Below, piece by piece: positions 16 to 51,973 of a stretch of 64,000 nt of DNA (its first letter is position 1; each line of letters opens with the position of its first letter). The notes under the pieces are model-generated. The model had not been told where the DNA came from, ran no database searches, and saw nothing but the letters and a program-made list of their open reading frames with translations. The stretch lies in contig NZ_JAMSLR010000001.1 of NCBI RefSeq assembly GCF_023806485.1, positions 124,001 through 188,000 of the forward strand, written 5' to 3'. The position numbers and the translations under genes are program-made. Source of the DNA: Thermalbibacter longus. Its GTDB lineage: Bacteria > Chloroflexota > Chloroflexia > Thermomicrobiales > Thermomicrobiaceae.

Positions 16-939
16 ATGGCGAGGAGAGAACTGCGCGGGTCGCTGGTTCCGCTGGTGACGCCGTTCAAAGACGGCCAGTTCGACGAGCCGGCGTTCCGCG
101 ACCTGATCGAGTGGCAGATCGAGAGCGGCAGCCACGGGATCTCGGTGACCGGCTCTACCGGTGAACCCTCGGCGCTCTCTCTGGAGGAGCGAGAGTACAT
201 CATCGAGACGGCGGTCAGGGCCGCGCGCGGGCGCGTGCCAGTGATCGCCGGCACCGGCACCAACAACTTCGACGAGACGCTGCGTCTCACCCGCTTCGCT
301 GAGCGCGCCGGCGCTGATGCGGCGCTGGTGATCGTGCCCTACTACAACCGGCCCACGCAGGAGGGGCTCTACCGGTACTTCACCGCGCTGGCCGACCAGG
401 TCTCGATCCCGATCATCATCTACAACATCCCCGGGCGCACCGCCGTCAACATGGAGCCGGAGACGGTGGCCCTCGTGGCGCGCGAGCGGCGCAACGTGAT
501 CGGCGTCAAGGAGGCGAACAAGGACTTCGAGCAGGTCAGCCGGCTGTTCGACCGCTGCGGGCGCGACTTCCTGGTCTACTCCGGCATCGAGGCGCTCTGC
601 TTCCCGCTGCTGGCGCTCGGCGGCGCCGGCTATATCAGCGCGACCGGCAACGTGCTGCCGCGCCAGTCTGCCGAGCTCTACAACCTCGTCGTCGCCGGCA
701 AGTGGCTGGAGGCCCGTGATCTCCACTACGAGATGCTGGCGATGAACGAGGCCCTGTTCCTGGAGACGAATCCCGGACCGGTCAAGTACGTGTTGAGCCT
801 GATGGGGAAGATCCAGCCCGAGCTGCGCCTGCCGCTGGTGCTACCCTCGGAGGAAAACCAGCGGAAGCTGCGGGCCGTCGCCGAGCGCTACGGCCTGATC
901 CCGGCCGCGGCGCCGGCCGCCGGGAACGGAGCCGGCTGA
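16..939 (+). CDS. DapA-family aldolase, probable HpaI-type (2,4-dihydroxyhept-2-ene-1,7-dioate aldolase)
   Basis: A 307-residue class I aldolase of the dihydrodipicolinate synthase/N-acetylneuraminate lyase family. Visible motifs are GSTGE (residues 46-50), YYNRP (109-113), YNIPGRT (136-142, the Tyr being the usual proton relay) and GVKEAN with the Schiff-base Lys at 165. The gene heads a homoprotocatechuate cluster and overlaps the next start by one base (TGATG). A recognised DapA subgroup (the HpaI-NOT-DapA type) occurs in such clusters in thermophiles and Gram-positives, and is thought to split the last C7 intermediate into pyruvate and succinic semialdehyde in place of the unrelated HpaI. 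I infer that role from context; a true lysine-pathway DapA is the alternative. The start has a GGAGAGG-like ribosome site a few bases upstream. Confidence 0.8.
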   Translation: MARRELRGSLVPLVTPFKDGQFDEPAFRDLIEWQIESGSHGISVTGSTGEPSALSLEEREYIIETAVRAARGRVPVIAGTGTNNFDETLRLTRFAERAGADAALVIVPYYNRPTQEGLYRYFTALADQVSIPIIIYNIPGRTAVNMEPETVALVARERRNVIGVKEANKDFEQVSRLFDRCGRDFLVYSGIEALCFPLLALGGAGYISATGNVLPRQSAELYNLVVAGKWLEARDLHYEMLAMNEALFLETNPGPVKYVLSLMGKIQPELRLPLVLPSEENQRKLRAVAERYGLIPAAAPAAGNGAG

Positions 940-1700
940 TGCGCACGGCACGCTTCATCGCCGACGGGCGACTGCACACCGGCCAGGTCGTCGAAGACCG
1001 GCTGGTCGACGAGAGCGGGCGGGTCCACCGCTTCGACGCGGTGATTTGGCTCCCACCGGTCGAGCCGACCAAGGTGCTCGGCCTGGTGCTGAACTACGCC
1101 GACCATGCCCGGGAGCTCGGGCTGGAGGTTCCGCCAGACCCGGTACTGTTCTTCAAGCCGCTGACCTCGTTGATCGGCCACCGCGCGCCCATCGTATACC
1201 CGACTGGGGTCGAGCGGCTGCACTACGAGGTCGAGCTGGCTGTCGTGATCGGCCGGCGCTGCCGCAAGGTGCGCGCGGCCGACGCCTTCAGCGTCGTCCG
1301 TGGCTATACGGTCGCCAACGACGTAACCGCGCGCGACTTCATCACCAACTACTTCCGCCCGCCGGTCAAGGCCAAGGGGTTCGACACCTTCGGCCCGCTC
1401 GGGCCCTGGCTGGTCGAGAGGGAAGACCTCGATCCGGACAACCTGGAGCTGCGCGCCTACGTCAACGGCGAGCTGCGCCAGCGTGGCCACACCTCGCACC
1501 TGATCCACAAGGTAGCGGAGATCATCGAGTACGTCAGCTCGTTCATGACCCTGGAGCCGGACGACGTGATCATGACCGGCACCCCGGAGGGGATCTCCTT
1601 CGTCCGGCCGGGCGACGTGCTGCGGGTGGAGGTCGAGGGCGTCGGCGCGCTCGAGAACCCCATCGTCGCCGAGAACGAGCTGGAAGGAGGCGGAACCTGA
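939..1700 (+). CDS. hpaG: Fumarylacetoacetate hydrolase family protein, HpaG-like decarboxylase/isomerase
   Basis: A 253-residue single-domain FAH-fold enzyme. The metal-binding signature appears as HYEVELAVVIG (around residues 95-105, with the acidic Glu pair) and ANDVTARD (around 126-133). The C-terminal part carries the MTGTPEGIS segment typical of the family. In homoprotocatechuate degradation HpaG decarboxylates 5-oxopent-3-ene-1,2,5-tricarboxylate and isomerises the product. The E. coli enzyme is a fused two-domain protein, whereas this one is a single domain. A 2-hydroxyhepta-2,4-diene-dioate hydratase role is possible too, because no separate HpaH is visible here. Translationally coupled on both sides: its ATG overlaps the previous stop by one base and its own stop overlaps the next ATG by one base. 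Confidence 0.82.
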   Translation: MRTARFIADGRLHTGQVVEDRLVDESGRVHRFDAVIWLPPVEPTKVLGLVLNYADHARELGLEVPPDPVLFFKPLTSLIGHRAPIVYPTGVERLHYEVELAVVIGRRCRKVRAADAFSVVRGYTVANDVTARDFITNYFRPPVKAKGFDTFGPLGPWLVEREDLDPDNLELRAYVNGELRQRGHTSHLIHKVAEIIEYVSSFMTLEPDDVIMTGTPEGISFVRPGDVLRVEVEGVGALENPIVAENELEGGGT

Positions 1701-3238
1701 TGACGACGGCCAGCTCTGTCCAGTACGCCGAACTGCGCGAGCAATCCCTGGCGGCGGTCCGCACGGTCAGGAACTTCATCGACGGTGCCTTCACCGAGGG
1801 GCCGAGCGGCCAGACCTTCGAGTCGCTCGACCCGGCGACCAACGACCCGATCGCAGCGGTGTACAGCGCCGGGCCGGAAGGCGTGGAGCTGGCGGTCGCC
1901 GCCGCCCGCCGCGCCTTCGACGAGGGGCCCTGGCCTCGCCTGCCGGCGGCCGAGCGGGCTCGGGCGCTGCGCCGGATCGCCGACCTGATCCGCGCGCGGG
2001 CTGACGAGATCGCGGTTCTGGAGAGCACCGACACCGGTATCCCGATCAAGCAGATCCGCGAGGCCCAAGTCCTGCGCGCCGCCGACAACTTCGACTTCTT
2101 CGCCGAGATGGCCACCCGGATCACCGGCGAGACGTACCCAGTGGACGACCTGTTCCTCAACTACACCGTGCGCCGGCCGGTCGGCGTGGCCGCGCTGATC
2201 ACGCCGTGGAACACGCCCTTTATGCTGGAGACCTGGAAGGTGGCACCGTGCCTCGCTGCCGGCAACACCTGCGTGCTCAAGCCGGCGAGCTGGTCGCCGC
2301 TCTCGGCCTACAAGCTGGCCGAGATCATCCAGGAGGCCGACCTGCCGCCCGGCGTCTTCAACCTGGTCTACGGCTCCGGCGAGACGGTCGGCGAGGCACT
2401 GGCGGCGCACCCGGGCGTCAATCTGGTCTCCTTCACCGGCGAGACCACGACCGGCAAGCGGCTGATGCGCGTCGGCGCCGATACTCTCAAGCGCTTCTCG
2501 ATGGAGCTGGGCGGGAAGTCGCCGGTGATCGTCTTCGCCGACGCCGACCTCGAGCGGGCGCTCGACGCGACCGTCTTCGGGGTCTTCTCGCTCAACGGCG
2601 AGCGCTGCACCGCCGGCTCGCGGTTGCTCCTCGAGCGCTCGATCTACGACGGCTTCGTGGCCCGGCTGATCGAGCGCGTGCACGCGATCCGGGTCGGTGA
2701 CCCGCTCGACCCGGCGACCGAGGTCGGCCCGCTGATCCACAAGCGGCACCTCGAGCGGGTGATGGGCTATCTGGATGTCGGGCAACGCGAGGGCGCCCGG
2801 CTGGCGGCCGGCGGGCGCCGGCCCGATGGCCCGGCGCTGGCCCGCGGCAACTACCTGCTGCCGACGCTCTTCGTCGATGCCCGGCCAGAGATGCGCATCG
2901 CCCAGGAGGAGATCTTCGGCCCTGTGCTCACCGTCATCCCGTTCGCCGACGAGGAGGAAGCGCTGCGGATCGCCAACGGCGTGCGTTACGGGCTGGCCGC
3001 CTACCTCTGGACGTCCGACGTCACCCGGGCGGCTCGCCTGGCGCCGGCCATCGAATCCGGCATGGTCTGGGTCAACTCCCAGAACGTGCGCGACCTGCGT
3101 ACCCCCTTCGGCGGGATGAAGGAGAGCGGCATCGGGCGCGAGGGCGGTCACTACTCGTTCGAGTTCTATACGGAGGTGAAGACGATCCACGTCGCGCTCG
3201 GCCGGCACCGGATCCCGAAGATGGGCGCCGGCTCGTAG
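1700..3238 (+). CDS. hpaE: 5-carboxymethyl-2-hydroxymuconate semialdehyde dehydrogenase
   Basis: A 512-residue NAD-dependent aldehyde dehydrogenase. The catalytic Glu is in MELGGKSP (residue 269) and the catalytic Cys in NGERCTAG (residue 303), with the usual 34-residue spacing. The cofactor segment TPWNTPFMLETWK is also clear. This enzyme class oxidises the semialdehyde made by extradiol cleavage of homoprotocatechuate to the acid. The open frame extends well upstream, but the ATG chosen overlaps the previous stop by one base, follows an AAGGAGG-type ribosome site and gives the normal family length. Position between HpaG-like and HpaB genes supports HpaE over a generic aldehyde dehydrogenase. 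Confidence 0.88.
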   Translation: MTTASSVQYAELREQSLAAVRTVRNFIDGAFTEGPSGQTFESLDPATNDPIAAVYSAGPEGVELAVAAARRAFDEGPWPRLPAAERARALRRIADLIRARADEIAVLESTDTGIPIKQIREAQVLRAADNFDFFAEMATRITGETYPVDDLFLNYTVRRPVGVAALITPWNTPFMLETWKVAPCLAAGNTCVLKPASWSPLSAYKLAEIIQEADLPPGVFNLVYGSGETVGEALAAHPGVNLVSFTGETTTGKRLMRVGADTLKRFSMELGGKSPVIVFADADLERALDATVFGVFSLNGERCTAGSRLLLERSIYDGFVARLIERVHAIRVGDPLDPATEVGPLIHKRHLERVMGYLDVGQREGARLAAGGRRPDGPALARGNYLLPTLFVDARPEMRIAQEEIFGPVLTVIPFADEEEALRIANGVRYGLAAYLWTSDVTRAARLAPAIESGMVWVNSQNVRDLRTPFGGMKESGIGREGGHYSFEFYTEVKTIHVALGRHRIPKMGAGS

Positions 3239-3260
3239 CCGGAGCGTAGCGGCTAGGACA

Positions 3261-3266
3261 TACAAT
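3261..3266 (+). promoter_or_regulatory. Possible -10 element (TACAAT) ahead of hpaB
   Basis: TACAAT lies in the 66-base gap between hpaE and hpaB, about 39 bases before the chosen hpaB start. No good -35 hexamer is visible. It suggests a second transcript start inside the cluster, but this rests on one hexamer. Confidence 0.3.
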
Positions 3267-3304
3267 TGGAATCGCGATCCGGCTCGCAGCGATTGGAGGA
3301 GGCT

Positions 3305-4798
3305 ATGGGCGCTCGCACCGGAGCGGAGTACCTCCGGGGGCTCAGGGAACGCCCGCGGGAGGTGTGGATCCACGGCGAGCGGGTACTCGGCGACATTACC
3401 GAGCATCCGGCCTTCAAGAACATCACGCGCAGCGTCGCCGCACTCTACGACATGCAACATGACCCGTCGCTGCGCGACGCCATGACCTTCGTATCGCCGT
3501 CGAGCGGGGAGCGAGTGGGACTCTCGTTTATCCAGCCGCGCTCGCAGGACGACCTCCGGCGGCGGAGCGGCATGATGAAGCGCTGGGCCGACTATTCCGG
3601 CGGCTTCATCGGGCGCTCGCCGGACTATCTCAACGCTGGCTTGGCGGCCATGGCCGCCGCCAGCGACTACTTCGCCCGCAACGACCCGCGCTTCGGCGAC
3701 AACATCAAGCGGTACTACGAGTACGTGCGAGAGCACGACCTCTGCCTAACGCACACCTTGATCACGCCGCAGGTCAACCGCTCGGCTGGCCCGGCGAGGC
3801 AGGCCGATCCGTATATCGTCGCGCGCGTGGTGAAGGAGACCGATGCCGGCATCGTCGTCCGCGGCGCGCGGATGCTCGCGACGCTCGGGCCGATCGCTGA
3901 CGAGATCGAGGTGTTCCCGTCGACCGTGCTCAAGGGCACGGAGGAGGACGCGCCCTACTCGTTTGCGTTCGCGATCCCCTGCGACACCCCAGGGCTGAAG
4001 TTCCTCTGTCGGGAGAGCTTCGACTACGGGCGTTCCCACTTCGACCACCCGCTCGGCTCGCGCTTCGAGGAGATGGACGCGGTGGTCGTCTTCGACGACG
4101 TGCTGGTTCCCTGGGAGCGGGTCTTCCTCTACCAGGACGTCCAGCTCTGTAACGGCGTCTTCGCCGAGACCAACGCGGTCGTCCACATGGCGCACCAGGT
4201 GGTGGTCAAGAACGTGGCCAAGACGGAGTTCATCTTCGGCATCGCCACCTCGATCGCCGATCGGATCGGTATCGACGGGTTCCAGCACGTCCAGGAGAAG
4301 CTGGCCGAGCTGATCATGACCCTGGAGACGATGCGCGCCTTCCTGCGGGCTGCCGAGGCTGACGCGGCCGTCGACCGCTGGGGAGTGATGACGCCGGCGT
4401 GGGCCCCGCTCAACGCGGCGCGCAACCTCTTCCCGCGGCTCTACCCGCGGATGATCGAGATCATCCAGCAACTCGGGGCCAGCGGGCTGATGGCGTTGCC
4501 GACCGAGGCCGACATCCACGGGCCGATCGGCCCGCTCATCGATCGCTACCTGCAGGGGCGGAACGTGGATGCCTACAATCGCGTCAAGCTCTTCCGTTTG
4601 GCCTGGGATGCCTCGCTGAGCGCCTTCGGCGCGCGTCAAGTGCTCTACGAGCGCTTCTTCTTCGGAGACCCGGTGCGGATGGCAGGCGCGCTCTACACGA
4701 GCTACCCGAAGGAGCCGTACAAGGAGCGTATCCAAGCGTTCCTCGACCAGGTGGAGCAGCAGGAGACGGCGACCTCGCCGGTCGCCGACGGCGAGTGA
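3305..4798 (+). CDS. hpaB: 4-hydroxyphenylacetate 3-monooxygenase, oxygenase component
   Basis: A 497-residue member of the HpaB/PvcC flavin-dependent monooxygenase family (acyl-CoA dehydrogenase fold). It hydroxylates 4-hydroxyphenylacetate to homoprotocatechuate with reduced FAD supplied by a separate reductase. Arg104, Tyr108 (in GRSPDY) and His150 (in LTHTL) sit where the substrate and flavin residues of the Thermus enzyme are expected, by my recollection of that structure. The open frame starts 13 codons earlier at a TTG, but the ATG chosen follows TTGGAGGAGG at good spacing and matches the usual N-terminus. The reductase gene follows after 14 bases, as expected for a two-component system. 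Confidence 0.9.
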   Translation: MGARTGAEYLRGLRERPREVWIHGERVLGDITEHPAFKNITRSVAALYDMQHDPSLRDAMTFVSPSSGERVGLSFIQPRSQDDLRRRSGMMKRWADYSGGFIGRSPDYLNAGLAAMAAASDYFARNDPRFGDNIKRYYEYVREHDLCLTHTLITPQVNRSAGPARQADPYIVARVVKETDAGIVVRGARMLATLGPIADEIEVFPSTVLKGTEEDAPYSFAFAIPCDTPGLKFLCRESFDYGRSHFDHPLGSRFEEMDAVVVFDDVLVPWERVFLYQDVQLCNGVFAETNAVVHMAHQVVVKNVAKTEFIFGIATSIADRIGIDGFQHVQEKLAELIMTLETMRAFLRAAEADAAVDRWGVMTPAWAPLNAARNLFPRLYPRMIEIIQQLGASGLMALPTEADIHGPIGPLIDRYLQGRNVDAYNRVKLFRLAWDASLSAFGARQVLYERFFFGDPVRMAGALYTSYPKEPYKERIQAFLDQVEQQETATSPVADGE

Positions 4799-4812
4799 GG
4801 ACGGGGTACGGC

Positions 4813-5412
4813 GTGGGCTTCGCTGAACTGAGCCTGGACGCGACGAGCTTCCGGCGGGTCATGGGCCTCTTCGCCACGGGCGTGGGGCTGGTCACGGCGC
4901 AGGCTGGGACCCGCATGCACGGGATGACGGCGAACGCGATCACCTCGGTCTCGCTCGATCCCCTGCTGGTGCTCGTCTGCGTGGGCAAGCAGGCTCGCCT
5001 GGTGCCGCTCCTGCGCGAGGCCGGGAGTTTCGCGCTCAACTTCCTGACACGCGAGCAGGAGCGAGTCGCTCGTCACTTCGCCGGGCAGGCGTACGACGGT
5101 CCACCGCCGGAGATCCACTTCGAGCCGTGGCAGGGCGGCCCGCGACTGCGCGGGAGCCTGGCGGCGGTCGGCTGCCGGGTGGAGCAGATCGTCGATGCCG
5201 GCGACCATTGGGTGGTGATCGGGCGCGTGGTGGCGCTGGCCGAGGGCGCAAGCGAGGCCGAGCCGCTGCTCTACTACCGCGGGCGCTACCGGCGACTGGC
5301 CGCGCTCGAGGAGACGCCGCCGCGGGAGGCGCCCGACCTGCTCACCAGCGTCGGCGCGGCGCTCTACTACGACGAGGCTGGCGAGCCGGAGCCGCCGCTC
5401 GACTGGGGGTGA
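4813..5412 (+). CDS. hpaC: Flavin reductase component of 4-hydroxyphenylacetate 3-monooxygenase
   Basis: A 199-residue flavin-reductase-like FMN-binding split-barrel protein. Recognisable parts are FRRVMGLFATGVGLVTA near the N-terminus, GMTANAITSVSLDPLLVLVCV (the flavin pocket) and the conserved DHWVVIGRV strand. It should reduce FAD/FMN with NAD(P)H and hand it to HpaB. It begins with GTG; longer frames upstream run into hpaB and have no ribosome site. The C-terminal tail beyond the domain (about 35 residues, ending EPEPPLDWG) is longer than in the E. coli protein. Confidence 0.87.
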   Translation: MGFAELSLDATSFRRVMGLFATGVGLVTAQAGTRMHGMTANAITSVSLDPLLVLVCVGKQARLVPLLREAGSFALNFLTREQERVARHFAGQAYDGPPPEIHFEPWQGGPRLRGSLAAVGCRVEQIVDAGDHWVVIGRVVALAEGASEAEPLLYYRGRYRRLAALEETPPREAPDLLTSVGAALYYDEAGEPEPPLDWG

Positions 5413-5468
5413 TGCCCCTCGGGTGGCAGTCGCTCGCGGCAGGCTACTTGAGCAGGTGAGGCATCGCC

Positions 5469-6503
5469 ATGAGCGAGCGGGAGGAGAGGAGATACCCAGT
5501 GCCTCGCCAGCAGCTTCCCTTCAACGTGCTGAAGACCGGGCACGTCGAGCTGCGGGTGACGGATCTGGAGCGGGCGCGCGCCTTCTACGTGGACCTGCTC
5601 GGCTTCGTCGAGACCGAGCGCGACGGGAGCTGCGTCTACCTGCGCGGGCTGGAAGAGTGGGAGCATCACAGCCTGGTCTTGCGCCAGGCGCCCTCTCCAG
5701 GCCTGGGGCACATCGCGTATCGGGTAGCCGGAGAGGAAGACCTGGAGGAGCTGGCGAGGCTGGCGCGCGACCGTGGCCTGCCAGCCCGCTGGCTGGGGCC
5801 GGGCGAGGAACGGGGCCAGGGGCGGGCGCTGCGCATACAAGACCCCCTAGGCTTTCCGGTCGAGTTCTATCATCAGGTGGAGCGAGTCGAGCGGTGGCTC
5901 CAACGCTTCCATCTTTACCGCGGCGCGCAGGTCATGCGGATCGACCATGTCAACCTCCACACGCCTGACGTCAAGGCCGGGCAGGACTGGTATGTGGGCA
6001 CGCTCGGGTTCATGGTCTCGGAGTACACCGAGACCGAGGACGAGCCGCCACGGCTCTGGGCCACTTGGCTCCACCGGAAGCAGAACGTGCACGACGTGGC
6101 ACTCATGACTGGGGTAGGGCCGCGGCTGCACCATGTGGGCTTCTGGCTACCGGAGCCGGGTTGTGTCCTGCGCGCCGCCGATATCCTGTCCGCGGCCGGT
6201 TTCGAAGGGACGATCGAGCGCGGGCCGGGTCGGCACGGCATCTCCAACGCGATGTTCCTCTACCTGCGCGATCCTGACGGCAACCGCATCGAGCTGTATA
6301 CCTGCGACTACCTGATCCCGGATCCCGACTTCGAGCCGATCCGCTGGGCGCTGAACGACCCCAAGCGCCAGACGTACTGGGGGCACGCGGCGCCGAAGAG
6401 TTGGTTCGACGAGGCGTCGCTCGTCGAGACCTTCGACGGCGTGGGCCTCATGGAAGTTCGGCAGCCGGAGCTCGCCGACCGGCCGGCTCACGTCGGTCAT
6501 TGA
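5469..6503 (+). CDS. hpaD: 3,4-dihydroxyphenylacetate (homoprotocatechuate) 2,3-dioxygenase, type I extradiol
   Basis: A 344-residue two-domain vicinal-oxygen-chelate dioxygenase. The C-terminal domain carries the metal ligands His160 (IDHVN), His222 (RLHHVGF) and Glu275 (NRIELYT), plus His208 (NVHDVAL) at the position of the second-sphere catalytic His of the Brevibacterium enzyme. The relative spacings agree with that enzyme. The N-terminal VOC domain has lost the ligand set, as usual. It cleaves the ring formed by HpaB. The start follows GGTGAGG; a GTG eleven codons later with a strong GGAGAGGAG site is an alternative. It closes the cluster and converges on the dedA-type gene with only nine bases between. 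Confidence 0.9.
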   Translation: MSEREERRYPVPRQQLPFNVLKTGHVELRVTDLERARAFYVDLLGFVETERDGSCVYLRGLEEWEHHSLVLRQAPSPGLGHIAYRVAGEEDLEELARLARDRGLPARWLGPGEERGQGRALRIQDPLGFPVEFYHQVERVERWLQRFHLYRGAQVMRIDHVNLHTPDVKAGQDWYVGTLGFMVSEYTETEDEPPRLWATWLHRKQNVHDVALMTGVGPRLHHVGFWLPEPGCVLRAADILSAAGFEGTIERGPGRHGISNAMFLYLRDPDGNRIELYTCDYLIPDPDFEPIRWALNDPKRQTYWGHAAPKSWFDEASLVETFDGVGLMEVRQPELADRPAHVGH

Positions 6504-27510: not shown

Positions 27511-27918
27511 GTGGTGGAGCGGATGAAGGTCTCTTCGGGCACGGTCTGGGAGGAGCGCGTCGGCTACTCGCGCGCGGTGCGCGCCGGCGACCTAGTGTTC
27601 GTCTCAGGCACGACCGCCACCGACGACCAGGGCAATGTCGTCGGCCGGGGCGATCCGGAGGCGCAGGCCCGCTTCATTATCGAGAAGATCAAGCGAGCGC
27701 TCGAAGCCGCCGGAGCCTCGCTGTCCGATGTCGTGCGCACGCGCGTCTACGTCACCAATGCCGACGACTGGGAGGCAGTGGGCCGTGCCCACGCCGCGTA
27801 CTTCGGCGAGACCCGGCCGGCCAACACCCTAGTCGAAGTCAGCAGGCTGGTGGGGCCAGATTACCTGGTCGAGATCGAAGCCGATGCGGTCATCGGTAGC
27901 GGTGGAGCGCGTGCGTGA
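27511..27918 (+). CDS. RidA-family (YjgF/YER057c) protein
   Basis: A protein of about 135 residues with the RidA fold: SRAVRAGDLVFVSGTTATDDQGNVVGRGDPEAQARFIIEKIKRALEAAGASLSDVVRTRVYVT and a C-terminal LVGPDYLVEIEADAVIG. The Arg in VVRTRVYVT is the residue that binds the carboxylate of imine intermediates in active RidA proteins. It could deaminate reactive enamines or act in a specific catabolic route. GTG chosen because an AGGGAGG site lies ten bases upstream; an ATG four codons later is possible. Overlaps the next gene by four bases (GTGA). Confidence 0.8.
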   Translation: MVERMKVSSGTVWEERVGYSRAVRAGDLVFVSGTTATDDQGNVVGRGDPEAQARFIIEKIKRALEAAGASLSDVVRTRVYVTNADDWEAVGRAHAAYFGETRPANTLVEVSRLVGPDYLVEIEADAVIGSGGARA

Positions 27919-28892
27919 GGTTCAGCGTCCGGCTGAACAACGACCTGCCGCTCCGCGAGTACGCGCGGCTGGCGCGTGCCGCAGAGGCTGCCGGCTTCGA
28001 CCAGATCTGGGTCAGCCACGACCTCTTCCTGCGCAGCGCGCCGGTACTGCTGGCAACGATGCTCCAAGCTACGGAGCGGATCGCTGTCGGCAGCGGCGTG
28101 CTCAACCCCTACACGCTGCACCCGGCCGAGATCGCCATGCTGGCGGCGACGCTGGACGAGCTGAGCGGCGGCCGCTTCTTGCTCGGCCTGGCCGCGGGTG
28201 CCGCCAACTTCCTGGAGTGGATCGGCGTCCGCCAGGAGCGACCGCTTGGGACGACCCGGCAAGCCATCCGCGCGATCCGGGCTGTGCTTGCCGGAGAGCC
28301 CGTCCCCGGGTGGGGACCGGAGGCGTACCTGCGCTTCCCGGCCTGCCTGGTGCCGATCTACCTGGGTGCCATGAGCCCGGGCATGCTGCGGCTCGCTGGC
28401 GAGCTGGCCGACGGCGTCCTGCCGCTGCTCTTTCCGCCCGAGCACTTCGCAACTGTCGCCCCGCTGATCGCCGAGGGGGCGGCGCGGGCCGGCCGCTCGC
28501 TCGACGAGATCGACCTGGCTGCCTGCGTCTGGTGCTCGATCGCGGACGACCGCGATGAGGCCGAAGCCGTGCTGCGCGATAAGATCGCCTACTACGGCAG
28601 CGCCTTCAGCCCGTTGATCCTCGAGCGCTTCGGGCTGACACGAGCAGACTTCGAGGCAATCGATCGGGCGTTGCAAGTCGAGCGCGATCCGGCCAGAGCG
28701 AGACGCCTGGTCACTGAGTCGATGCTCCAGATCGGCCTAGTCGGCACGCCCGAAGCGATTCTTCCGCGCCTGGAGCGCCTGGTCGAGATGGGCGCCCGGC
28801 ACCTCAGCTTCGGCCCGCCGCTCGGGCCCGATCCGGTCGCTGCCATCGAGCTGCTCGGCCGCGCGGTGCTGCCGCACTTCGGGCGCCGCTAG
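27915..28892 (+). CDS. LLM-class (luciferase-like) flavin/F420-dependent oxidoreductase
   Basis: A 325-residue TIM-barrel protein of the bacterial luciferase/methylene-tetrahydromethanopterin reductase superfamily. Seen: LARAAEAAGFDQIWVSHDLFLR, ERIAVGSGVLNPYTLHPAEIAMLAATLDELSGGRFLLGLAAG (cofactor region), and PIYLGAMSPGMLRLAGELADGVLPLLFPPE. The pattern around GSGVLNPYTLHP resembles F420-dependent members. Substrate unknown. Translationally coupled to the RidA-like gene (GTGA overlap), so the pair likely acts on one compound. Its stop overlaps the stop of the convergent gamma-glutamyltransferase gene. Confidence 0.8.
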   Translation: MRFSVRLNNDLPLREYARLARAAEAAGFDQIWVSHDLFLRSAPVLLATMLQATERIAVGSGVLNPYTLHPAEIAMLAATLDELSGGRFLLGLAAGAANFLEWIGVRQERPLGTTRQAIRAIRAVLAGEPVPGWGPEAYLRFPACLVPIYLGAMSPGMLRLAGELADGVLPLLFPPEHFATVAPLIAEGAARAGRSLDEIDLAACVWCSIADDRDEAEAVLRDKIAYYGSAFSPLILERFGLTRADFEAIDRALQVERDPARARRLVTESMLQIGLVGTPEAILPRLERLVEMGARHLSFGPPLGPDPVAAIELLGRAVLPHFGRR

Positions 28893-47229: not shown

Positions 47230-48633
47230 ATGAGCGCACCTGCAGCGAAGCGGAACTTGCAGTCGATTGTCGACTCGGTGTCGAGCATCAGCGAGTATCT
47301 CTACAATAATGTGACTGGGGCACGGGTTTACCCGGTGGTGCCGCCGGAGTTCTCGAACTGGCGCGACGAACAGCATGCCTGGCGAGAGACCGTCTGCCTC
47401 TTCGACCTCTCGTATCACATGACCGACCTGTACGTGTACGGTCCAGATGCCTTCAAACTCCTTTCGCAGCTCGCCATCAACAGCTTCAAGGGATTCGAGC
47501 CGGGACGGGCCAAGCAGCTCGTCGTCTGCACCCCGGCTGGCTACGTGATCGGCGACGCGATCCTCTTCTACCTCGACAAGGAGGCGTTCCAGCTCGTCGG
47601 CCGTCCCTCGGCCCATAACTGGGTGCAGTACCATGCCGAGACCGGCGGCTACAACGTGACGCTGGAGCGGGACGAGTGGTCGGTTGCCGATCCGCACCGG
47701 CCGCGCAAGGTCTACCGCTACCAGGTGCAGGGGCCGAACGCGAAGGCGGTGCTGGAGAAGCTCAATGGCGGGCCGCTACCGGACGTCAAGTTCTTCCACA
47801 TGAGCTGGATCACCATCGGTGGTCACCGGGTGCGGATGCTGCACCATGGCATGTCGGGAGTGGCAGGCGCGGAGCTAATCGGTCCCTTCGAGGAGGGCCC
47901 GGCGGTCAAGGCAGCCATTCTGGAGGCCGGCCAGGAGTTCGGAATCCGGCACGTCGGCTCGCGGGCCTATGCAACCAACACGCTCGAGTCGGGCTGGATC
48001 CCGTCGCCGCTGCCGGCGGTCTACACCGGGGAGGAGCTACGCGCCTACCGGGAGTGGCTACCGGCCACGAGCTACGAGGCAGTAGGGTCGCTGGGCGGTA
48101 GCTTCTACTCGCCGAACATTGAGGATTACTACCTTACCCCTTGGGATCTGGGGTACGGGCCCATCCTCAAGTTCGACCACGACTTCATCGGTCGGGAGGC
48201 GCTGGAAGAGAAGGCGAAGGGGCCGCATCGCAAGAAGGTGACGCTCGCGTGGAACGGCGAGGACGTCGCCCGCGCCTATGCCACGCTCTTTACTGAGCCG
48301 AAGGGCCAGCGAGCGAAGTACATCGACCTGCCGCTCTCCCAGTACGCCACCTGGATGTACGACAAGGTGCTGAACCGGCAGGGAGAACTGGTCGGCATCT
48401 CCACCTTCTGCGGCTACAGCTCGAACGAGGGCAAGATGCTGTCCCTGGCGATGCTGCAGGAAGAGTACGCCGAGCCGGGCACCGAGGTAACGCTGGTGTG
48501 GGGCGAAGAGGGTGGGGGCTCGCGCAAGCCGAGTGTCGAGCGCCACGTGCAGGTCGAGATCCGGGCGACGGTCGGGCCGGTGCCGTATTCCGAGGCAGCC
48601 CGCCAGTACCGTGCCACAGTGGCCCGCCGGTAG
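47230..48633 (+). CDS. Aminomethyltransferase-family protein, LigM-like tetrahydrofolate-dependent aryl O-demethylase
   Basis: A 467-residue protein of the GcvT fold. The segment VPPEFSNWRDEQHAWRETVCLFDLSYHM near residue 40 and the length match vanillate/3-O-methylgallate O-demethylases (LigM, DesA of Sphingobium, about 470 residues) much better than the 360-residue glycine cleavage T protein. Other GcvT landmarks: YVYGPDAFKLL, FHMSWITIGGHRVRMLHHGMSGVAGAELIGP. It would move a methoxyl methyl to tetrahydrofolate. A metF-like and an fhs gene lie just downstream on the other strand, the same partners that accompany ligM in Sphingobium. ATG after GGAGGGA. Substrate is inferred; sarcosine or dimethylsulfoniopropionate demethylases are alternatives. 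Confidence 0.78.
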   Translation: MSAPAAKRNLQSIVDSVSSISEYLYNNVTGARVYPVVPPEFSNWRDEQHAWRETVCLFDLSYHMTDLYVYGPDAFKLLSQLAINSFKGFEPGRAKQLVVCTPAGYVIGDAILFYLDKEAFQLVGRPSAHNWVQYHAETGGYNVTLERDEWSVADPHRPRKVYRYQVQGPNAKAVLEKLNGGPLPDVKFFHMSWITIGGHRVRMLHHGMSGVAGAELIGPFEEGPAVKAAILEAGQEFGIRHVGSRAYATNTLESGWIPSPLPAVYTGEELRAYREWLPATSYEAVGSLGGSFYSPNIEDYYLTPWDLGYGPILKFDHDFIGREALEEKAKGPHRKKVTLAWNGEDVARAYATLFTEPKGQRAKYIDLPLSQYATWMYDKVLNRQGELVGISTFCGYSSNEGKMLSLAMLQEEYAEPGTEVTLVWGEEGGGSRKPSVERHVQVEIRATVGPVPYSEAARQYRATVARR

Positions 48634-48658
48634 ACATCCCGCCCTCTAGTGGTATGCG

Positions 48659-48689
48659 TGCGCCCTGAGGGTACGGCCCTCAGGGCGCA
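48659..48689. terminator. Bidirectional terminator hairpin between the LigM-like gene and fhs
   Basis: A perfect 13-bp stem, TGCGCCCTGAGGG paired with CCCTCAGGGCGCA, around a five-base TACGG loop. It lies between two convergent stops and is the most stable simple hairpin I noticed in the window. Confidence 0.75.
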
Positions 48690-48789
48690 TCCCTTCCACG
48701 CTGCTCTGGCTACCGCGGTATCAGCGCGCTCGCTGGCGTGCCCGCGAACTGCCGTGTTGCGAGTTGCGCGGCTTCCTGCGAGTGTGACC

Positions 48790-50448
48790 CTAGCGAAGCC
48801 CGTGGATAACGCCGTGCTCGTCGACGTCGATCTCCGCGCCGAGCGGGTGACGACCGAGTGCGGGCATCGTCTGAATATCTCCCAGGAGCACGGTGACGAA
48901 GCCAGCCCCGGCCAAGAGTCGAAGCTCCCGGACCTGCACCTCGAATCCCTCTGGCCGGCCCAGCACCGTCGGATCCGCGCTCAGCGAGAGCGGCGTCTTG
49001 GCCATGCAGACCGGCAGGCGGTCGTACCCGTGCCTCGTGAGTACAGCAAGTTGTCGCCTGGCGGCCGCGGTGAAGCGCACGCTCCCTGCGCCGTAGAGCG
49101 TGCGCGCAATGACCTCGACCTTCCGCTCGAACGGCGCGTCGAGGTCGTACAGCGGGCGAAACGCCTTCGGCTTCTCGAAGGCGCGCAGGAGAGCGCGAGC
49201 AACCTCTAGCCCGCCCGGACCGCCGTCCGCATAGACGCTGGCCACGGCGGCTCCCTCGGCGCCGAGGTCCAGCGCCGCGCAGCAGACACGGTCGAGCTCG
49301 CGCTCGCTATCGGTTGGGAACCGGTTAACCGCCACGACCACCGGCACCCCGAACGCCTTGATGTTCTCGATATGCTTGGCCAGATTCGGCAACCCGGCCT
49401 CGACTGCGCCGAGATCCTCGCGGGCCAGCTCCTGTTCGTCGATGCGACCGCGACGACCACTCAGGCCGCCCTGCGCCTTGATGCTGCGTACTGAGGTCAC
49501 CAGCACCGCGGCGTCTGGAACCAACCCGCTCCCCCGGCACTTAATGTGGAAGAACTTCTCGGCTCCCAACTCGGTGCCGAACCCGGCTTCAGTCAGCACC
49601 ACTTCGGCCAGACGAGTAGCGATCAGATCGGCAATGACCGAGCTATTGCCGTGCGCGATGTTCCCGAACGGCCCGGTGTGGACGAACGCAGGCGTGTGTT
49701 CGGTTGTCTGGACGAGATTGGGCTTCAAAGCATCCACCAGCAGCGCGGTCATCGGCCCGGCAACGCGCAACTGCTCTGCGGTCACCGGTTGATTGTCATA
49801 GGTGAAACCGACAACGATGCGCCCGATGCGTTCCCGGAGATCGCGATAGTCCCTGGCCAACGCGAGGATCGCCATCACTTCCGAAGCGGCAGTAATGTCG
49901 AATCGGGTGGAGCGCGTTAGCCCGCCGCTCTCGTTGAGCCCGGTGACGATGTGCCGCAGGGCGCGATCGTTAACATCGAGCACTCGAGGCCAGGTGACGG
50001 TTCTCGGATCCAGAACGACATCGCCGTGGTACAGCGCATTGTCGAGGAATGCCGAGCACAGGTTGTGGGCCGCGGTGACGGCGTGGCCGTCGCCGGTGAA
50101 GTGGAGCGCGATGTCGGGGAAGGGAAGGACTTGTGCTGCTCCTCCGCCAGCGCCCGCCCCCTTCGTACCGAACACCGGCCCCAGCGAAGACTGCCGGACC
50201 GTAACGACCGAGCGCAGGCCCAGGTGCTTGAACGCTTGCCCGAGGCCGATCGTCATTGTGGTCTTGCCTTCGCCGAACTGGGTGGGAGTGGTTCCGGTGA
50301 CGAGGACGTACTTCGCTCGCGGAGCGGTGAGCCGCTCGAGCACCTCGAGCTTGACCTTCGCCTTGTATTGCCCGTAGAGTTCGATCTCGTCCTGCTCGAG
50401 CCCCAGCTCTTCGGCGATCTCGACGATCGGCCGTGGAACAGCGCTCAT
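48790..50448 (-). CDS. fhs: Formate--tetrahydrofolate ligase
   Basis: A 552-residue enzyme making 10-formyl-tetrahydrofolate from formate and ATP, or running in reverse. Motifs: YVLVTGTTPTQFGEGKTTMTIGLGQA (P-loop), VRQSSLGPVFGTKGAGAGGG, FDITAASEVMAILALA, HGNSSVIADLIATRLA, TEAGFGTELGAEKFFHIKCRGSGL and GVPVVVAVNRFPTDSE. Together with the metF-like gene upstream it can process methyl groups released by the LigM-like enzyme. It is the counterpart of ligH in Sphingobium (known there by genetic context). Confidence 0.94.
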   Translation of the reverse strand: MSAVPRPIVEIAEELGLEQDEIELYGQYKAKVKLEVLERLTAPRAKYVLVTGTTPTQFGEGKTTMTIGLGQAFKHLGLRSVVTVRQSSLGPVFGTKGAGAGGGAAQVLPFPDIALHFTGDGHAVTAAHNLCSAFLDNALYHGDVVLDPRTVTWPRVLDVNDRALRHIVTGLNESGGLTRSTRFDITAASEVMAILALARDYRDLRERIGRIVVGFTYDNQPVTAEQLRVAGPMTALLVDALKPNLVQTTEHTPAFVHTGPFGNIAHGNSSVIADLIATRLAEVVLTEAGFGTELGAEKFFHIKCRGSGLVPDAAVLVTSVRSIKAQGGLSGRRGRIDEQELAREDLGAVEAGLPNLAKHIENIKAFGVPVVVAVNRFPTDSERELDRVCCAALDLGAEGAAVASVYADGGPGGLEVARALLRAFEKPKAFRPLYDLDAPFERKVEVIARTLYGAGSVRFTAAARRQLAVLTRHGYDRLPVCMAKTPLSLSADPTVLGRPEGFEVQVRELRLLAGAGFVTVLLGDIQTMPALGRHPLGAEIDVDEHGVIHGLR

Positions 50449-50577
50449 CGTCCCTCCTCACCCTCCAGTTCTCGCGGTTTTCAGCCTCGTGCGACCGGCC
50501 GAATGCCCTTCAATCGATTACTACGTCGATTATCCTACGATCCCGCAAATCCTCGTTCCCCGAGCGCAACGAGGGAC

Positions 50578-51462
50578 TTACCGGGCAGTGACTCTCAACT
50601 CCCGCTGCCTGCTCTCGATCCACTCGACCGTTCGTGTGAGCTCATTGAAGGTGCTCCAGTGGATGCCGACGATCTGCTCGTGATCGGGCCCGAACTGCTC
50701 GAGGAGCGACTCGATGAGCGACCACGGATCGTACCGGTATCCACCGGTTAGGAGCTGCGGCAGTAACCCCTGCTGCTTCTCGAGATAGCGAAGGGATTGC
50801 CCGATCCCGAGGCGTACCGCGATTCGGAGGAGACGATCGATACGGAGCGTCCCGGGGAGACAGAGATAGACCGGCAGATGGAAGCCCTGACTCCTGGCAG
50901 CCCTGAGCCAGCCCAGGATCGCCCCGGCATCGAAGCTCATCTGCAATATGGCGTACGTCGCGTAGGGCTGTTTTTTCAGCAGCATGTCCATCAATACACT
51001 CGAGGGTATCTTCGGGTGCCCCTCGGGATAGGCAGCGACACCGATAGTCTGTGGCCGGCGATCCAGCGTGCTCAGCACTTCGAGCAGCTCGAGCGCGCCG
51101 GTAAACGCGCCGAGCGGTTGCTCCTGGTCGCCACCGATGACAAAGACCTCGTCGATGCCAGCATCGACAAGCGCGTCGATGATGCGCGCTAACTCGTGCC
51201 TGTCGCGCACCGCGCGAGCTGCCAGATGTGGGACCACGGTAAATCCCCGGCGCCGCAGCTCGGTGGCCAGCTCGACCGTGCGCGCGACGCCGAGTTTCGG
51301 CGAGCTGGTCACCGTGAGCTTGTAGCGCTCAGGGATGCCCTTCGCGATTTCATCTGCTTTGGCTGTAGGCAAGATCTCTAATCGCGCATTGTCGAGGAGA
51401 CGGCACACCCATTCCACTTCTGCGCCATCAGCGAACTGGCTCGCCCCCTGCCGATCGGACAC
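50578..51462 (-). CDS. metF: Methylenetetrahydrofolate reductase-like protein
   Basis: A TIM-barrel flavoprotein of about 294 residues. ARLEILPT supplies the Glu that corresponds to the catalytic Glu in the EFFPP motif, though the FFPP part is not conserved. VVPHLAARAVRD, VFVIGGDQEQPLGAFTGALELLEVL, IGVAAYPEGHPKIPSSVLMDMLLKKQ and AILQMSFDAGAILGWLRAARSQG are typical. In this setting it probably oxidises 5-methyl-tetrahydrofolate. It lies 129 bases upstream of fhs on the same strand. Start unclear: GTG (51462) is used, with AGGA about ten bases upstream; a TTG at 51495 is in frame. Confidence 0.82.
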   Translation of the reverse strand: MSDRQGASQFADGAEVEWVCRLLDNARLEILPTAKADEIAKGIPERYKLTVTSSPKLGVARTVELATELRRRGFTVVPHLAARAVRDRHELARIIDALVDAGIDEVFVIGGDQEQPLGAFTGALELLEVLSTLDRRPQTIGVAAYPEGHPKIPSSVLMDMLLKKQPYATYAILQMSFDAGAILGWLRAARSQGFHLPVYLCLPGTLRIDRLLRIAVRLGIGQSLRYLEKQQGLLPQLLTGGYRYDPWSLIESLLEQFGPDHEQIVGIHWSTFNELTRTVEWIESRQRELRVTAR

Positions 51463-51973
51463 AGTCCATCGATCCTTTCCGTATCCATTCCCCAAGAAAG
51501 ATCTACTTCAGCAATTTCTACCATCTTCTGACCAGAATACCTCCTCGGCAAGACCCGCTAGATGTCATCTGTTCAGCTATTCTGAACAGATGACACTCAC
51601 TGCTCTTCAACTCCATAGTACTACGACCTGACCGTGTACGCAATTCCCTCTTTGCCCGAGGGTCGATGACGCGCTGTCACCCTCACCGCGTTGCCTTCTT
51701 CCATGCTTGCAACCGCAGGGGCTCAGGGTATCGCGGCGACGAAGCTCTCCCAGGGCAATCGCGAGCCGGTGAGAAGCTACAGTCGATCTCTCGGCAGTCG
51801 CCGCGCAAATGAGCCTTCACCGCGAGACGAGCGTGCCGCCCTAACCCAAAAGCACTGGCGCCACCGGGATGAGCCGGATAGCTCCAACTCCCGTCATCGG
51901 CTTACGGGAGAGGTGCGGAGACGCGTAACGCTTCAGGGGAGACGTGCCATTCTTCTGGTGGAAGGGAACACCG
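51463..51973. other. Divergent intergenic region between metF and the ECF sigma gene
   Basis: About 500 bases without a credible gene. The half nearest metF is distinctly richer in A+T than the surroundings and contains the long palindrome described separately. The half nearest the sigma factor gene holds a small CTCCCG...CGGGAG inverted repeat near 51890 and no promoter that I can defend. Confidence 0.4.
51563..51595. promoter_or_regulatory. Perfect 14-bp palindrome upstream of metF, probable operator
   Basis: TGTCATCTGTTCAG, loop CTATT, then its exact reverse complement. It lies about 100 bases upstream of the metF start and 380 before the sigma gene, in A+T-rich DNA. The symmetry and length suit a dimeric regulator of GntR, TetR or similar type; an RNA hairpin is the alternative. 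No regulator gene adjoins. Confidence 0.55.

Follow-up and report, generated by a model that had tools for sequence, protein, structure and literature searches.

One of the described systems closest to the genes treated here is the one-carbon (C1) module of Sphingobium SYK-6, in which the O-demethylase LigM is paired with a methylenetetrahydrofolate reductase (MTHFR), S6MTHFR, for the recovery of C1 units from folate (Senda et al. 2025, PMC12585457). According to this conference abstract, S6MTHFR works in reverse, oxidising 5-methyltetrahydrofolate (5-methyl-THF), and the reported rationale of the module is to substitute for an absent glycine cleavage system. DesA-like aminomethyltransferases are reported from thermophilic metagenome-assembled genomes (MAGs), one of which also carries metF and ligH (Levy-Booth et al. 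2022, PMC9296663); the linear syringate pathway of Pseudomonas NGC7 takes 3-O-methylgallate to the tricarboxylic acid (TCA) cycle via GalB and GalC (PMC12314914), and the genetics of DesA and LigM have been treated in Novosphingobium (PMC8091115). These last three papers, like two more named below (PMC4250580, PMC8431788), are cited from excerpts. We analysed a window of 64,000 nucleotides of Thermalbibacter longus (contig NZ_JAMSLR010000001.1, positions 124,001 to 188,000), in which a relative of LigM and DesA lies beside fhs and an MTHFR gene. From sequence comparison we put at roughly 0.7 the probability that these genes form a module for salvaging the methyl groups of methoxylated aromatic acids. 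In the open-licence literature, where most matches were judged by their listing entries, we recognised no description of such a module in Thermomicrobium/Sphaerobacter relatives, nor of a gallate dioxygenase of the VOC type.

All three genes are intact open reading frames (ORFs), placed where a sequence-only reading had put them, and the genome (80 contigs, completeness 99.93%), which that reading took to be probably of the Thermomicrobia, is supported as one of the Thermomicrobium/Sphaerobacter family. The demethylase relative (47230..48633, + strand) has the predicted 467 amino acids (aa), GcvT fold and FSNWRDEQHAWRE-type N-terminus; it starts at ATG 47230, preceded by a GGAGGGA-like ribosome site. 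Convergent with it on the minus strand are fhs (48790..50448), encoding a formate–tetrahydrofolate ligase of 552 aa analogous to LigH (739 bits on the Pfam profile FTHFS; 704 bits on NCBIfam PRK13505, above the cut-off of 652), and the MTHFR gene (50578..51495). The MTHFR ORF opens at TTG, and an alternative GTG at 51462 has AAGGA upstream. The GTG is likely the true start, since two bases between TTG and GTG that differ in a second genome of the genus (G001) would alter amino acids if coded. Gene order in G001 is identical, with 96% and 92% identity over those parts of the demethylase and of fhs that are covered, and 86% in MTHFR.

Like LigM and DesA, the window demethylase has the GcvT-derived fold over its full length: in the Protein Data Bank (PDB), the solved LigM chains 5x1i and 5tl4 match it from end to end, at 558 and 556 bits, well above anything that chance would give. 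It is about 56% identical to LigM and 58–60% to DesA equivalogues, and scores 613 bits on the NCBIfam LigM profile (NF047885, cut-off 580) and 683 on the DesA profile (NF047633), below the cut-off of 800; five reference DesA proteins reach 868–907 bits on the latter, and DesA proteins also pass the LigM cut-off, at 603–640 bits. Membership of the DmdA, GcvT and sarcosine-oxidase families is rejected on profile scores, with 99 and 72 bits on the GcvT profiles (cut-offs 300 and 236) and 49 on DmdA (cut-off 410). In an alignment of 122 rows, the window gene included twice, the presumed catalytic residues His60, Tyr247 and Trp256 (LigM numbering throughout) are invariant (122/122), and Arg122 is retained in 114 rows, the window demethylase among them. 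Gln57, which we take to belong to the LigM active site, is replaced by Leu in the window demethylase; Leu occupies this position in 22 of the 122 aligned rows. Where the demethylases have Tyr247, the GcvT encoded by this genome has Arg, so the window protein combines the GcvT fold with a catalytic tyrosine replacing the residue of GcvT, as befits a tetrahydrofolate (THF)-dependent aryl O-demethylase in the wide sense. The DesA-like proteins of thermophiles likewise retain the catalytic tyrosine; the excerpt confirms the tyrosine as methyl-transferring and gives no residue number (PMC9296663).

Two trees, one of 94 rows with a GcvT outgroup (whose branch, at 8.89, is far too long) and one of 49 rows rooted at the midpoint, fix three demethylase clades, the rooting leaving their branching order unsettled. 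The window demethylase falls in both within a clade of 25 rows distinct from those of DesA and LigM, most of them from genomes of thermophiles (Sphaerobacter, Thermomicrobium, Armatimonadota and Bacillota of hot springs) and a few from MAGs of Actinomycetes. In the 49-row tree the DesA clade and the LigM clade (SYK-6 and sphingomonads) each have 100/100 support, and the window demethylase is in neither. The third clade is split from the two together at 100/100. By its sequence, then, the protein belongs to a third clade beside LigM and DesA and is neither of them proper. The sequence-only reading, which had called it LigM-like and proposed a phylogeny as the check, was right about the fold and the key residues and wrong about LigM proper, given the third clade, the higher DesA score and the Leu at Gln57; DmdA, sarcosine and GcvT membership finds no support.

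On sequence, the MTHFR is S6MTHFR-like and not a canonical MetF. Its nearest solved relative in the PDB, the chain 7xg9, which we take to be S6MTHFR of SYK-6, gives 122 bits (34.6% identity over 272 aa), against 41 bits for the next, a canonical MTHFR; the canonical Pfam profile gives a weak 40 bits, and blastp against the canonical MTHFR domain of the same genome gave no match. Our identification of 7xg9 agrees with the presence, near demethylase genes in Proteobacteria, of genes 46–60% identical to that chain. Of the metF-fhs pair that had been read here, fhs and the convergence stand, and the ordinary MetF does not. As for the remaining folate genes, FolD lies on the same contig as the window (C1:696242), an HMT-MTHFR fusion is encoded separately on another contig, and a GcvT gene is present, followed by ORFs that resemble, by eye, GcvH and GcvP. 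The genome thus shares with the SYK-6 module the pairing of a demethylase with an S6MTHFR-like enzyme for folate C1 recovery, but differs from it in its glycine-cleavage genes, in the distance between the two MTHFRs and in having fhs adjoin the MTHFR gene.

Gene order and co-occurrence make it very probable that demethylase, MTHFR and fhs are functionally linked. In one relative (L144) a single strand encodes MTHFR, Fhs, the demethylase, an NMT1-type binding protein, DUF6282, GalB, GalC and a VOC dioxygenase, and in another (L141) MTHFR-Fhs is divergent from the binding protein, demethylase, DUF6282, GalB, GalC and VOC, so that the C1 half and the ring-cleavage half form one cluster in both; L013, like L144, has MTHFR-Fhs-demethylase on one strand. 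Three further loci (L005, L006 and L010, two of them Armatimonadota MAGs) have DUF6282-GalB-GalC-VOC-demethylase together with Fhs and an MTHFR of the MetVF type (MTHFR plus PF12225 as seen in L010, to which L005 and L006 have 68% relatives), a distant relative that apparently replaces the S6 type beside the demethylase. Six Chelativorans loci (L044, L046, L054, L060, L061, L081) have a demethylase with VOC and GalB no more than about 10 kb away, five of the six also with GalC. Across the flanks of 80 related demethylase loci, 13 of them shorter than 8 kb, MTHFR is of the S6 type in 22, of the MetVF type in three and canonical in none, and fhs is found in five.

Co-occurrence was followed in 41 genomes, 21 from the family and 20 from the order's other families. 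Eleven have the demethylase, all of them within the family, and 11 have S6-type MTHFR: ten genomes have both, one has each alone and 29 have neither. Of the 11 genomes with the demethylase, 10 have a VOC dioxygenase scoring above 600 bits, the exception being G001 (81% complete); none of the other 30 has one. Fisher p values for S6-type MTHFR and VOC are 1e-7 and 1e-8 over the 41 genomes and 3e-4 and 3e-5 within the family; they ignore kinship and are descriptive only. Three genera each include genomes that lack both demethylase and S6-type MTHFR (G002 and G003; G012; G016).

The probable ring-cleavage half is found in this genome on contig C5 (L086:5140-17428, G000:C5), where a second demethylase, 71% identical to that of the window, stands with a thiamine pyrophosphate (TPP) enzyme, a periplasmic binding protein, a Liv-type transporter, DUF6282, GalB, GalC and a VOC extradiol dioxygenase. 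GalB gives 202 bits to 5cgz and GalC 206 bits (cut-off 179); the dioxygenase gives 322 bits on the C23O profile (cut-off 320) and, aligned to homoprotocatechuate 2,3-dioxygenase, retains the H, H and E motifs that presumably bind the iron. The substrates of GalB and GalC are oxalomesaconate and the compound formed by its hydration, and oxalomesaconate arises from cleavage of gallate, or of 3-O-methylgallate plus one hydrolysis (PMC12314914). AromaDeg places gallate, methylgallate and protocatechuate 4,5-cleavage in the LigB superfamily (PMC4250580), and the Arthrobacter keyseri enzyme is likewise of the LigAB kind (PMC8431788), so that a VOC enzyme beside GalB and GalC is unusual. No LigB-fold catalytic subunit stands beside them on C5; the single LigB match in the genome is weak (75 bits), lies away from the C5 operon and carries no NCBIfam name. 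DUF6282 shows, read by eye, HxH...K...H...H...D motifs, and its model, built on three sequences with a mean predicted local distance difference test (pLDDT) value of 83, is an amidohydrolase-type barrel; the fold matches, at TM near 0.5–0.6 with a large root-mean-square deviation, limit the claim to the superfamily, and a pyrone or methyl-ester hydrolase is a plausible role on the model.

On these gene contents the C5 operon is likelier to be the ring-cleavage partner than the aromatic cluster of the window itself. The latter (16-6503, + strand) encodes HpaI, the C-terminal part of HpaG, HpaB and HpaD, all above their NCBIfam cut-offs, for meta-cleavage of homoprotocatechuate (4-hydroxyphenylacetate), and is for that reason rejected as a vanillate or syringate route; the sequence-only reading had the meta-cleavage cluster right, and its link to lignin-type methoxyaromatics is not supported. 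An intradiol protocatechuate route is also rejected, PF00775 having given no match in the genome.

In the salvage module as we picture it, the window demethylase would take the O-methyl group from an acid resembling syringate or 3-O-methylgallate and pass it to THF, as its fold and catalytic residues suggest. The S6MTHFR-like enzyme would then oxidise 5-methyl-THF to 5,10-methylene-THF, a direction suggested by the solved relative closest to it and by the separately encoded HMT-MTHFR fusion, which could itself serve methionine. By established chemistry FolD would yield 10-formyl-THF, and Fhs, running towards formate, would recover THF and ATP. The demethylated ring would be opened by the C5 operon, with VOC dioxygenase, DUF6282 hydrolase, GalB and GalC leading to pyruvate and oxaloacetate, and the whole would presumably operate at high temperature. 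A wider proposal, which we hold tentatively and a little short of even odds, is that the Thermomicrobium/Sphaerobacter family and Armatimonadota have a syringate pathway whose parts are non-homologous: a THF demethylase of the third clade, a VOC (type I) dioxygenase to cleave gallate or 3-O-methylgallate, DUF6282 to open the pyrone or methyl ester, GalB and GalC, with reversed MTHFR and Fhs burning the methyl groups. The Pseudomonas NGC7 pathway reaches the TCA cycle from 3-O-methylgallate through the same GalB and GalC, but the excerpt names VanA1B1, MgaAB, MgaC, MgaD and GalD (PMC12314914) where we find a THF demethylase, a VOC dioxygenase and DUF6282. The MAGs in the excerpt of PMC9296663 are Actinobacteria and one gammaproteobacterium, whereas the present genome is of the Thermomicrobium/Sphaerobacter family and has linked genes and a probable VOC ring-cleavage partner. 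Chemistry of this kind is known; what is new is the variant seen in the demethylase clade and in the probable ring-cleavage partner, the latter apparently undescribed so far.

Several observations weigh against such a module. The window genes are convergent rather than a single operon, and in this genome the demethylase-C1 genes and the ring-cleavage operon are on different contigs. Of the 80 related loci, 55 have no MTHFR in their flanks; G018 has the demethylase with no S6-type MTHFR detected, and G010 the reverse. The SYK-6 rationale does not carry over, because glycine-cleavage genes are present here. The C5 dioxygenase could act on another catechol, and the demethylase substrate may differ from that of LigM because Gln57 is Leu. 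Convergence, the hairpin between the genes and the 55 loci without these neighbours would all suit MTHFR and fhs that belong to ordinary folate metabolism and lie near the demethylase by accident; this we consider highly improbable in the face of the one-strand order in L013 and L144, the co-occurrence and the joint absence within genera, the MetVF-type MTHFR that L005, L006 and L010 have in the corresponding position, and the separate HMT-MTHFR fusion.

The substitution at Gln57 bears on two other explanations in opposite ways. It argues against a plain LigM, that is, the vanillate/3-O-methylgallate demethylase of the sequence-only reading, which we regard as decidedly unlikely: the LigM cut-off is passed (613 against 580) and identity to LigM is 56%, but DesA proteins pass the same cut-off, and the window protein has its higher score on the DesA profile and sits outside the LigM clade. 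The same Leu would fit a demethylase acting on some other aromatic methyl or methylenedioxy ether, such as homovanillate feeding the Hpa cluster of the window, or a lignan, rather than on syringate-type acids. That cluster is 41 kb from the demethylase, and a paralogue in G011 (L145) with Val at Arg122 adjoins an HpaD gene. The window demethylase, however, retains Arg122, the HpaD-linked paralogue falls in a separate subclade (L110/L111), and the close relatives adjoin VOC-GalB-GalC and not HpaD, so that we find this explanation unlikely.

If the enzymes of the salvage module act as proposed, it would offer oxygen-independent and probably heat-stable O-demethylases for lignin acids, and would extend the LigM-S6MTHFR idea to bacteria that also have glycine-cleavage genes. 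It would also give predicted functions to a clade of VOC dioxygenases and to DUF6282, a family without a named function.

Between the convergent genes lies a hairpin (48649..48699) with 23-nt arms, 83% paired, possibly a bidirectional terminator without a T run; since the genes converge with this hairpin between them, demethylase and fhs-MTHFR are probably transcribed as two units. A perfect 14-bp inverted repeat with a 5-nt spacer (51563..51595), some 100 bp upstream of where MTHFR likely starts, may be the operator of MTHFR-fhs, as its conservation suggests: its 27-bp core is exact in G001, where the adjoining leader is kept and the sequence farther upstream diverges, and occurs once in the genome, at this site. 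The regions ahead of MTHFR in L008, L137 and L144 showed no such palindrome, nor did that of L141 show it in this form, and no operator family was built for that reason. No Rfam elements were found in the window.

The ring-cleavage clusters of Armatimonadota and of Chelativorans repeatedly include a DUF1932 dehydrogenase (L005:5066-5977, L010:1999-2931, L061:13330-14217), which might be an analogue of LigC. A clear orthologue in the present genome is rejected (best match 42 bits), so that we see no evident complete route for protocatechuate that would use an enzyme of this kind here. The HpaD beside the G011 paralogue (L145:8998-11682) is 72% identical to that of the window, and the paralogue, judged by its neighbour, may demethylate homovanillate. 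Elsewhere in the window (27915-28892, + strand), an LLM-family oxidoreductase gives 227 bits to F420-dependent methylene-tetrahydromethanopterin (H4MPT) reductase, below the cut-off of 276.

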